From Planctomycetota bacterium (GTDB lineage Bacteria > Planctomycetota > UBA8742 > SKZP01 > JAIOTL01): DNA of 8,905 bases. The position numbers and the translations under genes are program-made. The notes under the pieces are model-generated. The model saw nothing but the letters and a program-made list of their open reading frames with translations. It ran no database searches and was not told the origin of the DNA. The stretch lies in the NCBI GenBank assembly GCA_021106775.1, contig JAIOTL010000244.1:1-8905 (forward strand). The letters run 5' to 3'. Of this stretch, positions 3,273 to 8,435 are shown piece by piece (positions within the stretch are counted from its first letter, which is position 1; every line of letters begins with the position of its first letter).

Positions 3273-3956
3273 TTATTCCGAGGGTTTTTCATCCTCAGCT
3301 TTGACTTCTTCTGACTTGGCTGCATTTGCTTTAGCATCATCTGCTTTGTCCTTCGCCTTTTTAGCAGCGATTAATTCCTCAATCTTCGCATTGTAATTAG
3401 CTTCTTTTTCCTCAAGACGCTCAGCTTCACGCTTCTTAACCTTTTTAACAGGCTCGCCCAAAAGCTCCTTGACTTTTCTTGCTTTACCAACTCTATCGCG
3501 CAAATAATAAAGCTTTGCACGTTTTACACGACCGCGTCTCAAAACTTCGATTCTTGAAATCTTAGGTGAATGAAGCGGGAAGATTCTTTCAACCCCTTCA
3601 CCCTCGACGATTCTACGCACGGTAAACGTTTCGCGGATTCCTCCATGTTTCTTCGCAATGACAGTTCCCTGGAAAATCTGATGCCTTTCCTTGTCCCCTT
3701 CGACGATTTTGAAAAACACCTTAACTTCATCGCCAACACGGTACAATGGAATATCATATTCGAGAACATCGCCTGATTTCCCTTTTTTCTTAGGCTTTTT
3801 CGTTTTCTTCGCTTTTTTGCCTTTTTTCTTTGCAGTTTCTTCTTTGGAAACCTTTTCTTCTTCTTTTTCTTCCTCAGGAATTGTTACTTCGCCTTCTTTG
3901 GCTTTTGCGATTTCTTCCTGAATTGTTTTTTCAGTCTTCTTGATGAGCGGATCCAT
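3273..3956 (-). CDS. rplS: 50S ribosomal protein bL19 with long charged insertions
   Basis: bL19 sits at the interface of the 50S and 30S subunits. The conserved core is unmistakable: [29 protein letters not shown], then [30 protein letters not shown], then [25 protein letters not shown]. The product is 227 residues from ATG 3956, about twice the usual 115-130. An acidic then Lys-rich stretch (roughly residues 17-66) is inserted between the N-terminal [12 protein letters not shown] helix and the core. A roughly 60-residue Lys/Glu/Ala tail follows the core. I choose ATG 3956 because GGAG at 3963-3966 stands six bases upstream and bL19 proteins typically begin with a sequence like MDPLI; an ATG at 3968 is the alternative. 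The start overlaps the end of trmD by 26 nt, which suggests translational coupling. Confidence 0.93.
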
Positions 3957-4767
3957 CGTTTTCTCCATTTATATTTTTATTCTCAGTTTTTTTCTGTTTG
4001 TTGTTTAGAAAAGCTGGGAATTTTAGTTTTTTTCTTTCTCTTTGTAAACCAGGAAGTTGTAAAAATTTGGTTAAAATCGCATTTTCATTTGTTTTTAAGT
4101 CGGGTCTGCGTTTTTTTGTCCGTTCGATACTTTGTTTCATACGCCATTTTGCAACTTTTTCGTGATTACCCGAAAGTAAAATTTCAGGCACCTTTTTTCC
4201 TCTGAATTCAAAAGGGCGAGTGTAAGTTGGGAAATCGAGCACATTACCAACCTCAAAACTCTCGAAATCCGAAGAATAATCGTCGCCAAGAACGCCAGGA
4301 AGAAGTCGGCACACAGCATCGATAACCACAATTGACGCCAATTCACCACCAGAAATGACATAATCACCAATCGAAATCTCATCCCAGTCATATCCTTCGC
4401 GTATTCTTTCGTCAAAACCCTCGTAATGACCGCAGAGCATGAGCAAATGTTCTTCATTCGATAAATCCTGGGCAAGCTTTTGGTCAAAGGTTTTGCCCTG
4501 CGGCGTCAGCATAATAATTTTCGGCATTTTTGCTAGATTTGATGTTATATTTTCTATGCAGTCGAAAATCGGTTCGCATTTCAACACCATCCCAGGTCCA
4601 CCACCATATGGTCTGTCATCTACAGTCTGATGTTTATCAGTTGTGAAATCCCGAAAATTATGCGTCGTAATATTAATCAAACCCTTTTCCCGCGCACGTT
4701 TCAGTATGCTATACGATGTACCAGCATCAATTAATTCTGGAAAAAGGGTCAATACATCAAATTTCAT
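3931..4767 (-). CDS. trmD: tRNA (guanine-N1-)-methyltransferase TrmD
   Basis: TrmD methylates G37 next to the anticodon using S-adenosylmethionine, which prevents +1 frameshifting; it works as a dimer in the cytoplasm. The 278-residue product starts [13 protein letters not shown]. It shows [11 protein letters not shown] (50-60) and the SPOUT trefoil-knot cofactor site with [12 protein letters not shown] (111-122) and [10 protein letters not shown] (133-142). Arg154 lies in CRLLPGVLG, followed by LDFPTYTRP (177-185) and [17 protein letters not shown]. At the position of the catalytic Asp169 of the E. coli enzyme, Glu169 is present (ESF rather than DSF). A Lys/Asn/Glu-rich tail of about 30 residues extends past the usual end and overlaps rplS. 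The stop is TGA. Upstream, rimM and rpsP, which often precede trmD, are absent. Confidence 0.95.
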
Positions 4768-4979: not shown

Positions 4980-5247
4980 GTTCTGTCCCGTAAGTTGTTT
5001 GAGAGGAGATTTTATCAGATTTATGCAACAAGCATGCTGGATTTGATTTTGACCTGCTCAATTGCACCGAAAAACATAATTTGCAGCTGAGAAGGTTGAA
5101 AACATTAAAAGCAATGCTTTTTCGGAATCGAGGATTGAGAAACTCCGCAGGCGTAGCCAAAGCTACATCGAGGTCGTTTTGATTGAAGAGATTTCGAAAA
5201 TTGTGTGAAGCTGAAAAAATATATCAAAACTACTTTTGGGACAGAAC
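4980..5247. mobile_element. MITE-like element with GTTCTGTCCC terminal inverted repeats
   Basis: A 268-bp stretch begins GTTCTGTCCC and ends with the exact reverse complement GGGACAGAAC. Similarity of the ends continues inwards (AAGT.GTTT in both) for about 20 bp. The trinucleotide TAG flanks both sides (4977-4979 and 5248-5250), as expected of a target duplication. No transposase is encoded; a minus-strand open frame across 4930-5160 runs past the element end and is not convincing. It looks like a non-autonomous relative or deletion derivative of an insertion sequence. The parent family is not identified. Confidence 0.55.
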
Positions 5248-5391: not shown

Positions 5392-5425
5392 ATCAAGTTT
5401 TACGTACTATCCGAAAGTTTGCACA

Positions 5426-5953
5426 ATGAGTATCCTTATATCGTTTTTTCCGAGAAATAAATGGGGACAGGGCATGGTAGCCCGGTGGTGGGCATTTATT
5501 GTCCTGATTGCAGTTTTTGCATGGGGAAGTTACAGTTCTTTCCAAATTTTGTACACATATATTGGATGGCAGACCGAGATACCGAACCCGGGCATTGAAT
5601 TACCTGAAGAATCCAGGATTGCTGAATACGAAGTAATAATTTCTGCAGATGATGCAGAAGCCATCAAAGAACTCAGCAAATTCGACAAAACCGACGATGG
5701 ATCGTATTTAATCAACGAAAGTGCCGACTATATTCTCAAAGAGGGTTACGGCTTTGACCCTGTAACAAAAGAACAGAGGAATGGTTCCGGTATTGCATGG
5801 GCTGCATTAGTTGCATTCGGCATTTTCATGCTGTTTTTCTTGTTATCCTGGCGTGTTGTACACGGTAGAAAAGGTTCAGAAGTTCTTCTTGAAACCGAAC
5901 ATGAATTGAGGAAAGTTGTTTGGCCCAGCAAGCAACGTGTGTTTAATTCGTGA
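5426..5953 (+). CDS. secE: Protein translocase subunit SecE, ending at an in-frame TGA before its last helix
   Basis: SecE clamps SecY in the SecYEG channel of the inner membrane. This 175-residue frame has NKWGQGMVARW (11-21), a first helix (about 20-45), an extracytoplasmic-looking stretch of roughly 75 residues (46-120) and a second helix (about 122-143). The conserved amphipathic segment follows: SEVLLETEHELRKVVWPSKQ (151-170), then RVFNS. A TGA at 5951-5953 stops it exactly where the universally conserved third helix should begin. The same frame then continues for 32 codons of helix-like sequence to TAA at 6050-6052. The N-terminal extension resembles planctomycete SecE. ATG 5426 has only a weak ribosome binding site; an ATG at 5474 has GGGGA upstream, but using it would remove the conserved GQG. 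Sequencing error, point mutation, readthrough or a split subunit are all possible. nusG follows, as usual. Confidence 0.85.
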   Translation: MSILISFFPRNKWGQGMVARWWAFIVLIAVFAWGSYSSFQILYTYIGWQTEIPNPGIELPEESRIAEYEVIISADDAEAIKELSKFDKTDDGSYLINESADYILKEGYGFDPVTKEQRNGSGIAWAALVAFGIFMLFFLLSWRVVHGRKGSEVLLETEHELRKVVWPSKQRVFNS

Positions 5954-6052
5954 ATTCTTGTTGTTATAACAATGACATTTTTTTCAATAATTCTGTTTTT
6001 CTCAGATATCTTGATTAACATGTTGATTAAAGATATCTTGAAACTCTGGTAA
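5954..6052 (+). other. In-frame remainder of secE: third transmembrane helix after the TGA
   Basis: These 32 codons plus TAA continue the secE frame and read ILVVITMTFFSIILFF then SDILINMLIKDILKLW. This is what follows the WPSKQ segment in intact SecE proteins: the membrane helix that contacts SecY, then a short amphipathic end. An internal ATG at 5972 could start only a 26-residue fragment. A 12-bp palindrome, TTGTTATAACAA (5961-5972), lies seven bases after the TGA. Confidence 0.75.
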
Positions 6053-6107
6053 ACTGTTCCGCATAACTTTTATTCAACAGTCAGATTAGAATCGCGAGGG
6101 GTTAATC

Positions 6108-6677
6108 ATGTCAAAGCTTTGGTACGTATTGAGAATTAGAACCGGTCAAGAAGAGATTATTAAGGAATCCATTGCGCGAAGAATGAGGCAGGAAGGGCTG
6201 GAGCATCTACTTGGTGAAATCCATATCCCAACTCAGATGGAATTTGATTATGAGGACGGGAAAAAGCCCAAGAAAAAAGACCGCAAGATTTACCAGGGAT
6301 ATTTGTTTCTTGAGCTTGATTTGATGGTCGAGGACAAACTAAACGACGATTTGTACTACATTATCAAGGATGTGCCTGGTGTTGGCGATTTTGTCGGTCC
6401 GCAGGGTCAGCCTTTGCCGATGACCGATGAAGATGTGGATAAAATGCTGGATCGTCAGCCTGAACCTGTGATAGATGCAACCGGCGAAACTGAGCTTGAT
6501 GTTGTTGTGCCATTTTCGGTTGCTGACAGAGTTACGGTTACTGAAGGCGGATTCAAGAACTGCGAGGGAGAGGTTGAGAAGATATTGGAGCGTGGAATGG
6601 TTCGCGTGAATATCATGATTTTCGGCAGGAAAACACCCACGGACATCGAATTCACCAAGCTCGAAAAAATCGACTAG
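6108..6677 (+). CDS. nusG: Transcription termination/antitermination protein NusG
   Basis: NusG binds RNA polymerase near the bridge helix region. It modulates pausing and links the polymerase to Rho or to ribosomal protein uS10. The 189-residue product has an NGN domain (about 3-110), starting KLWYVLRIRTGQEEIIKESI, with KIYQGYLFLEL (60-70) and VPGVGDFVGPQGQPLPMTDED (89-109). A short acidic linker follows, then a KOW domain (about 135-189) with PFSVADRVTVTEGGFKNCEGE, VRVNIMIFGRKTPTDIEF and a final lysine-rich end. The VGDFVG and PLPMTDED features are planctomycete-like. GAGGGG at 6096-6101, six bases before ATG, is a strong ribosome binding site. It follows secE by 55 bp after the TAA at 6052. 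rplK, the usual next gene, is missing: a repeat block follows instead. Confidence 0.95.
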   Translation: MSKLWYVLRIRTGQEEIIKESIARRMRQEGLEHLLGEIHIPTQMEFDYEDGKKPKKKDRKIYQGYLFLELDLMVEDKLNDDLYYIIKDVPGVGDFVGPQGQPLPMTDEDVDKMLDRQPEPVIDATGETELDVVVPFSVADRVTVTEGGFKNCEGEVEKILERGMVRVNIMIFGRKTPTDIEFTKLEKID

Positions 6678-6743
6678 TGTTACCTTTACGTTCTTTTTGC
6701 ATATTTCACAGAATCTGTCGGTTTCGTAGAGAAAATTCCCATT

Positions 6744-6779
6744 GTCATTCTGAACGAAACGAAGTAGAGTGAAGAATCC
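6744..6779 (+). repeat. GTCATTCTGA...GAAGAATCC interspersed repeat, copy 1
   Basis: Begins GTCATTCTGAACG and ends GTGAAGAATCC, directly followed by AGGATGGTCAT, which also follows later copies. ATTC at the start and GAAT at the end are complementary and can close a stem. Confidence 0.65.
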
Positions 6780-6780
6780 A

Positions 6781-6835
6781 GGATGGTCATACACTAATTA
6801 CATGCCTGCTCGTTGTCATTCTGAGCGCAGCGAAG
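6781..6835 (+). repeat. Direct repeat A, left copy (with a GTCATTCTGAGCG repeat at its end)
   Basis: This 55-bp stretch, beginning GGATGGTCAT and ending GCGCAGCGAAG, recurs at 8381-8435 with three mismatches, exactly 1600 bp away. The last 40 bp are identical. Confidence 0.8.
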
Positions 6836-6869
6836 CGGACGAAGTCCTTTAATTATCCAGGATGGTCAT
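6832..6869 (+). repeat. Direct repeat B, left copy
   Basis: A 38-bp stretch, beginning GAAGCGGACGAAG and ending GGATGGTCAT, is repeated without mismatch at 8353-8390. In the left block it follows repeat A; in the right block it precedes it. Confidence 0.8.
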
Positions 6870-6885
6870 ACACAAAACATCGAAT
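6855..6885 (+). repeat. Direct repeat C, left copy
   Basis: A 31-bp stretch, beginning ATCCAGGATGG and ending ACATCGAAT, is repeated without mismatch at 8437-8467. It overlaps repeat B on the left but follows repeat A on the right. Confidence 0.75.
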
Positions 6886-6985
6886 AATAGAAAACATTTT
6901 ATTCAATGAAGACAAAGATTCTCGGTCAGAAATTATCAGACATAAAACATTTTAATGTGTTCCACGTTTAATCTTCCGCTAGCCT

Positions 6986-7029
6986 GGATTCTTCGTTACA
7001 CTCCCTTCGTTCGTACCACTCAGAATGAC
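6986..7029 (-). repeat. GTCATTCTGA...GAAGAATCC interspersed repeat, inverted copy
   Basis: Read on the minus strand it begins GTCATTCTGAGTGG and ends AACGAAGAATCC. It faces the copies at 6744-6835 and forms part of the foldback. Confidence 0.6.
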
Positions 7030-7059
7030 AAGATTCTGTGAAATCTGCAAAGAAGACGC

Positions 7060-7081
7060 AAAAAAAAGTGGGTTTACCCAC
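7060..7081 (-). terminator. Terminator-like hairpin on the minus strand (TAAA loop, T8 tract)
   Basis: On the minus strand GTGGG-TAAA-CCCAC is followed by eight T, the form of a Rho-independent terminator. No leftward gene lies upstream of it. A second hairpin at 7133-7146 has the same loop and flanks, so this is probably part of a repeat family. Confidence 0.4.
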
Positions 7082-7132
7082 CTCTACGAAACCGTTAGAT
7101 TCAGAAAAATATGAAAAGGGACGGAAAAAAAC

Positions 7133-7146
7133 GCATGTTTACATGC
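7133..7146 (-). repeat. Second TTTA-loop hairpin with A tract
   Basis: GCATG-TTTA-CATGC is preceded by GACGG and seven A. The hairpin at 7068-7081 is GTGGG-TTTA-CCCAC preceded by GACGC and eight A. Stems differ completely while loop and flanks are kept. Confidence 0.45.
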
Positions 7147-7163
7147 TTGTCAGCGAAAGCGAA

Positions 7164-7192
7164 CCTTAGTGGTTCTTCGTGTTCTTGGTGGC
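7164..7192 (+). repeat. CTTCGTGTTCTTGGTGG-type interspersed repeat
   Basis: Reads CCTTAGTGGTTCTTCGTG followed by TTCTTGGTGGC. A diverged, opposite copy lies at 2999-3020. It looks like non-coding filler and overlaps the unsupported frame at 7111-7299. Confidence 0.45.
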
Positions 7193-7343
7193 AAAAAGAT
7201 TTTAACTGGATTAAATCGAATACTTCTGTCCTTAACTATGAGATTGAGTCAAATTGTAAAACTGCTTACAATTCTTTGAATAATATTGATTTGCCTTAAA
7301 TTTTGATTTATTGTCTGCGAGAGTTCATCAAGTCAGGATAAAC

Positions 7344-7826
7344 ATGTATTATTTATATTTTGCAACTGGTTTGCTGCTATTGATTTCATTTATCAAAAGC
7401 CGAAAAAAAACTATCAAAGCGTTTAAAATTTCCATAAAGAAATTTATTAAAATTTTACCTGCATTTGTAATTATGATTATTTTGGTTTCAATTGCTTTTT
7501 TCCTGTTGCCTTCAAGTTTGTTTATGAACCATTTTAATAACAAGGTGCAATTGATTGATGTATTTATCGCAACAATTCTCGGCTCCATCACACTTATGCC
7601 GGGATTTATAGCATATCCAATGTGCGGTATTTTGTTACAAAAAGGTGTCAGTTATATGGTTATATCAGCATTTACAACAACTTTGATGATGGTGGGGATT
7701 CTTACTTTTCCTGTTGAAAAAGAGTATTTCGGAATCAGAGTTGCCCTAATCAGAAATATAATTGGATTGATTATCGCTTTGGTAATAGCGATTACAATTG
7801 GATTCATCTACGGTGAAATATTATGA
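7344..7826 (+). CDS. Half-size permease, N-terminal half of a DUF318/ArsP-like transporter
   Basis: This 160-residue membrane protein has about five predicted helices (3-17, 37-56, 70-92, 103-122, 130-155). It resembles the first half of predicted permeases of the PF03773 (ArsP_1/DUF318) type. Segment ATILGSITLMPGFIAYPMCG (76-95) is followed by LLQKGVSYMVISAFTTTLMM (97-116) and a Pro/Glu turn FPVEKEYFGIRVALIRN (122-138). ATG 7344 is chosen because AGGA at 7335-7338 lies just upstream; a TTG at 7311 would add 11 residues without a ribosome binding site. Its TGA overlaps the ATG of the next gene (ATGA), so the two halves are translationally coupled. Base composition is visibly richer in A+T than the neighbouring housekeeping genes. 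The substrate is unknown; arsenic-type Cys motifs of true ArsP are not evident. Confidence 0.7.
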   Translation: MYYLYFATGLLLLISFIKSRKKTIKAFKISIKKFIKILPAFVIMIILVSIAFFLLPSSLFMNHFNNKVQLIDVFIATILGSITLMPGFIAYPMCGILLQKGVSYMVISAFTTTLMMVGILTFPVEKEYFGIRVALIRNIIGLIIALVIAITIGFIYGEIL

Positions 7827-8350
7827 AAATTCGAAAAAAGCATATCAAGTACATCTTCATTGCAGTATATGTCATATTTATACTTATATCATTGCTCTTT
7901 AGTTTTGATTCAGGTAATCAAATTGGTGCAAATTCCGCGAACTTTGTGCTTGAGTTACTCAAAATACTGCCTTGTGCATTTATTTTGATTGGCTTGTTCG
8001 AAGTCTGGGTAAAAAAAGAAAAAGTTGAAAAATATTTTGGCGAAAAATCCGGGTTCATGGGGTACATTTGGAGCATTATTCTCGCTGGTTCAACTGTCGG
8101 CGGATTGTATGTTGCATTTCCCGTTGCCTATTCTTTGCGCAATAAAGGTGCAAAATTAAGCATTGTTTTTACTTATGTTGGTGCAGCAGGGATATGCAGA
8201 ATTCCAATGACAATTTTTGAAGCATCATTTATGGGTTTGAAATTTACTCTGATAAAGTTGATTGTATCTCTGCCTTTAGTTATTTTGTCATCGATTTTAC
8301 TTGGAAAATATCTTGAAAAACACGATTATCAACTTCTGAAAGGGAAGTGA
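7823..8350 (+). CDS. Half-size permease, C-terminal half of a DUF318/ArsP-like transporter
   Basis: This 175-residue membrane protein has a basic N-terminus (MKIRKKHIKY) and about five helices (10-27, 40-62, 81-103, 111-128, 140-161). The central part, IILAGSTVGGLYVAFPVAYSLRNKGAK (85-111), parallels residues 77-101 of the partner. The later IPMTIFEASFMGLKFTLIKL (127-146) parallels the partner's FPVEKEYFGIRVALIRN. This inverted or duplicated two-half design is typical of PF03773 permeases, which are usually one chain of about 300 residues. It probably assembles with the upstream half in the inner membrane. The start overlaps the upstream stop by four bases. TGA at 8348-8350 is followed two bases later by direct repeat B, so the gene abuts repeat DNA. 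The transported substrate is unknown. Confidence 0.7.
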   Translation: MKIRKKHIKYIFIAVYVIFILISLLFSFDSGNQIGANSANFVLELLKILPCAFILIGLFEVWVKKEKVEKYFGEKSGFMGYIWSIILAGSTVGGLYVAFPVAYSLRNKGAKLSIVFTYVGAAGICRIPMTIFEASFMGLKFTLIKLIVSLPLVILSSILLGKYLEKHDYQLLKGK

Positions 8351-8352
8351 CT

Positions 8353-8390
8353 GAAGCGGACGAAGTCCTTTAATTATCCAGGATGGTCAT
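8353..8390 (+). repeat. Direct repeat B, right copy
   Basis: Identical over 38 bp to 6832-6869. It starts two bases after the stop codon of the second permease gene and is truncated at its left side relative to the GTCATTCTGAGCG unit it belongs to. Confidence 0.8.
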
Positions 8391-8435
8391 GTACAAATTA
8401 CATGCCTGCTCGTTGTCATTCTGAGCGCAGCGAAG
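8381..8435 (+). repeat. Direct repeat A, right copy
   Basis: Matches 6781-6835 over 55 bp with three mismatches. Its end continues into GAATCC, giving a complete GTCATTCTGAGCG...GAAGAATCC unit (8414-8440). Confidence 0.8.

Follow-up and report, generated by a model that had tools for sequence, protein, structure and literature searches.

The window, that is, the whole stretch of 8,905 nucleotides analysed here, carries a secE gene whose reading frame is interrupted by an in-frame TGA. nusG, the usual neighbour of secE, lies directly downstream. The interrupted frame and its neighbour were laid out as follows:

5426..5953, plus strand: secE, the part before the in-frame stop, as given in the open reading frame (ORF) listing (175 amino acids; 64-79% identity with the relatives P0002-P0005)
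5951..5953, plus strand: in-frame TGA, directly after ELRKVVWPSKQRVFNS; serine in 7/7 relatives of the same type
5954..6052, plus strand: continuation in the same frame, with 32 codons for the C-terminal SecE helix and then TAA at 6050-6052
6108..6677, plus strand: nusG (PF02357, 65.5 bits; the relative P0040 is 95% identical)

The 175-residue ORF encodes an N-terminal helix, a loop, a second helix and, at its end, the conserved segment ELRKVVWPSKQRVFNS. The first-pass annotation had the frame 5426-5953 stopping at the TGA of 5951-5953, directly after this segment, and had the helix kept in the same frame up to a TAA at 6052; both the coordinates and the preserved helix were borne out. The residues encoded past the TGA over these 32 codons, ILVVITMTFFSIILFFSDILINMLIKDILKLW, are identical to those of the nearest relative (P0002) at 25 of 32 positions, and the continuation is therefore not a product of chance. 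An alignment via P0002 also placed it on the helix seen in solved SecE chains. A Pfam scan of the 175-residue ORF alone returned no family at E<=0.001; scanning only the called ORF for families thus fails to reveal SecE at all. Read through the TGA, the frame matches PF00584 (SecE) at 40.8 bits (E 2.1e-10, cut-off 22.7), with residues 156-202 corresponding to profile positions 6-52 of 55; the 32 residues alone align to positions 27-52 at 10.8 bits (E 0.49), under the cut-off. The earlier naming of the gene as secE is supported; the profile match exceeds the cut-off only when the frame is read through the TGA, and nusG is present downstream (6108-6677), the neighbourhood looked for around a SecE gene. 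In the contig as read, the TGA parts the conserved segment from the SecY-contacting helix, and the two are not found in one chain.

Several other features surround the pair. Between trmD and secE, at 4980-5247, 21-nt inverted repeats (GTTCTGTCCC.../...GGGACAGAAC) that are 86% complementary stand 226 nt apart; the unit looks like a small non-coding mobile element, a type that we infer. On the minus strand, trmD, at its 3′ end, and the gene for ribosomal protein L19, at its 5′ end, share 38 bases (3931-3968). The gene rplK usually comes after nusG. In the window, nusG is followed from 6678 to 7310 by repeats and then by a permease pair, and none of the ORFs listed there stands out as a ribosomal protein gene. 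The two permease genes are half-size (7311-7826 and 7823-8350), overlap by ATGA, and both align to one and the same half of the 294 positions of ArsP_1 (PF03773), the first to 4-134, with a score below the curated cut-off, and the second to 12-139. They are flanked on both sides by a 60-nt direct repeat (6776-6835 and 8376-8435, 95% identical), with further related copies at 6832-6876 and 8353-8397.

A protein search with the 175 residues returned the window's own protein and five relatives, and a search with an alignment of these added two more long-type relatives, P0007 and P0008. Identity to the window is 46-79% across these seven, of which P0006 is a 105-residue partial sequence. None of the seven is interrupted; each has a serine at the TGA position (7/7), with segment and helix in one chain. 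The first-pass annotation had raised the question of whether the TGA is conserved in close relatives, and the aligned SecE proteins of the same type answer it in the negative. The window shares with these long-type SecE/Sec61-gamma proteins (PF00584; P0002-P0008) the overall layout, the LRKVVWPSK segment, the C-terminal helix and nusG directly downstream; among them, it alone has a stop that separates the conserved segment from the helix. In P0007 and P0008, the extracytoplasmic loop is shorter and contains four cysteines (CX4C and CX2C) that may form a metal-binding knuckle; the window has none there.

A wider SecE alignment took in 16 of the 39 proteins found, and threonine occupies the TGA position in all eight of the more distant SecE proteins aligned (8 of the 31 distant ones found). 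Neither the first genome-contig scan nor a scan of viral contigs returned a locus. A contig scan with the alignment of the seven relatives gave 13 loci, all titled Planctomycetota or planctomycete MAGs, and further genome searches added loci L014-L030, the share from the phylum search consisting of its best 15 matches. At the aligned place, these 30 Planctomycetota SecE loci (L001-L030) have serine (29/30) or threonine (1/30) and never a stop (0/30); each has a sense codon and one continuous SecE. The number of independent cases is somewhat below 30, since L001 and L021 refer to one and the same place, and L003, L004 and L006 resemble one another at the site. A TAG flagged as a stop inside the SecE of genome G061, among the matches listed, follows a complete helix and is simply where that gene ends. 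Judged from these alignments, the TGA is private to the window among the sequences compared.

Since an ordinary amino acid stands at the place of the stop in the relatives examined, the TGA most likely stems from a sequence error or a very recent mutation rather than from a novel type of gene. Four options had been put forward in the first-pass annotation, namely a sequence error, a fresh mutation, programmed readthrough, and a SecE made from two chains. The first two stand. The other two lose support, since one would expect kin to share readthrough or a two-chain SecE, yet the relatives have a sense codon (7/7 and 30/30).

Programmed recoding, by which the UGA would be read through or decoded as selenocysteine in normal SecE expression, would fit a continuation that is intact and conserved in the same frame. 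As in bacterial UGA readthrough and selenocysteine insertion, an in-frame UGA is followed by a conserved continuation in the window; unlike in these systems, the UGA is not conserved, with a stop at the site in 0/7 same-type relatives and 0/30 Planctomycetota loci, and no structural signal was found. At the site, RNA folds over 60, 101 and 91 bases were not better than those of shuffled sequences (z -0.53, -1.48 and -0.54, respectively), and Rfam gave no match at E<=1 over 5400-6120. The relatives, moreover, have serine or threonine and not cysteine at this position, which argues against selenocysteine. Selenocysteine insertion and a structured readthrough signal were rejected on the missing structure, Rfam match and conservation, and we consider programmed recoding very improbable.

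Similarly, a SecE formed from two chains, in which the C-terminal helix is made as a peptide apart from the 175-residue piece, would fit the preserved helix, and a 26-residue ORF does open with the ATG at 5972. Since this ATG comes six codons into the 32-residue segment, a separate peptide begun there would miss the start of the helix. No ATG, GTG or TTG start that would give the whole helix separately was found, and none of the compared relatives is split. With neither a suitable start nor split relatives, a two-chain SecE was set aside and appears exceedingly improbable.

As for the genetic code, reassignment of TGA to an amino acid in the window's organism has only the one in-frame TGA in its favour. 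The first-pass annotation took TGA to be a genuine stop in the window and a changed code to be unlikely, and we agree on both points. TGA closes three of the window's genes (trmD and the two permease genes), no internal stop was found in the nine other genes, the first of which runs off the edge, and the tryptophan codons of these nine are all TGG (15/15). On the TGA ends, the absence of internal TGA and the use of TGG for tryptophan, all within the window, a changed genetic code was discarded; we give reassignment almost no credence.

The window and P0002 differ at 7/32 residues after the TGA and at 33/159 before it, which is about equal; by stretch, they differ at 31/130 positions in residues 17-146 and at 2/29 in residues 147-175. 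By these counts, the part behind the stop is not decayed. Against six other relatives, the window matches at 124/192 positions after the TGA and P0002 at 140/192, and before the TGA the respective values are 502/821 and 519/821 (all hand sums). This leans slightly towards a faster change behind the TGA in the window, the extra changes being few and the hand sums raw.

We also counted SecE matches per genome across 392 evenly drawn Planctomycetota genomes. With a threshold of E<=0.001, matches occurred in 346 of them and were lacking in 46. Among the matches listed, inspected by eye, two genomes of the 346 (G209 and G313) have two SecE matches and the rest have one; G209 also has two NusG matches. 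In addition, following 11 of the 13 named loci (L004 and L006 left out) to their genomes led to 11 genomes with one SecE match each and no stop inside. A spare secE is therefore uncommon in the phylum. Class searches around four genomes (1, 9, 2 and 154 genomes; E<=1e-14 or 1e-15) yielded no close relative. Nor did a NusG search of the phylum sample at E<=1e-25, which matched 303/392 genomes, largely the same as those matching SecE, with a best NusG identity of 45% among the matches listed. The closest NusG proteins are 95% (P0040) and 84% identical. As measured by these comparisons, the nearest genomes in the searched collections are Planctomycetota, but distant ones, and the lineage of the window's organism seems to have no close genome in those collections.

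A true and very recent nonsense mutation, present in some or all of the sampled cells, comes second among the readings; we regard it as possible but rather unlikely. A very young stop would fit the conserved continuation. The mutation could be tolerated through near-cognate readthrough of the UGA giving enough full-length SecE, through a suppressor tRNA or through a second secE, or its carriers could be dying out. UGA can be leaky, with a measured readthrough of about 12% in E. coli, but of 0.08% and 0.04% in two Pseudomonas species (PMC9481147). A text search of PMC13092985, a paper on UGA-reading tRNA-Trp, gave no mention of planctomycetes. Speaking against a real mutation are the essentiality of SecE in E. 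coli, as described in PMC9360617, the rarity of a second SecE match in the phylum (2/346 genomes, by eye among the matches listed) and the lack of any sign of decay behind the stop. It is highly doubtful that the TGA is both real and fixed in the population, with the essential SecE made only by UGA readthrough and export newly dependent on leaky termination. If true, an essential translocase subunit would depend on the reading of a stop codon, a rare situation.

The best reading is that a single-base error in the contig turned a sense codon into TGA, and we hold this to be probable. A wrong base gives the best fit because the stop is unshared, the gene is essential in E. coli and the continuation is intact; it is supported by the absence of TGA from the compared relatives, the conservation of the frame behind it and the otherwise open state of the contig. 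We infer an erroneous base rather than a genuine change. Three observations count against this. Measured against the six farther relatives, the window has changed slightly faster than P0002 behind the TGA, the other genes of the window gave no further sign of sequence errors, and the cluster of the truncated ORF (P0001) counts two member sequences on one contig. The second member might be a separate, independent sequence that also carries the stop, and so uncertain a member would fit a real mutation; just as well, it could be the same gene with its start called at an internal methionine, which is how P0002, P0004 and P0005 are listed.

If the contig error is the correct reading, the locus would be the ordinary secE-nusG pair of a Planctomycetota-like bacterium, in which one wrong base, arising from a sequencing, amplification or assembly-consensus error, caused a sense codon to be read as TGA. 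In the cell, the gene would most likely be continuous and encode one SecE chain of about 208 residues, and the C-terminal helix of this full-length SecE would clamp SecY, as in other bacteria. The case shows that one doubtful base in a short contig can mimic a broken essential gene, and that relatives narrow the options.
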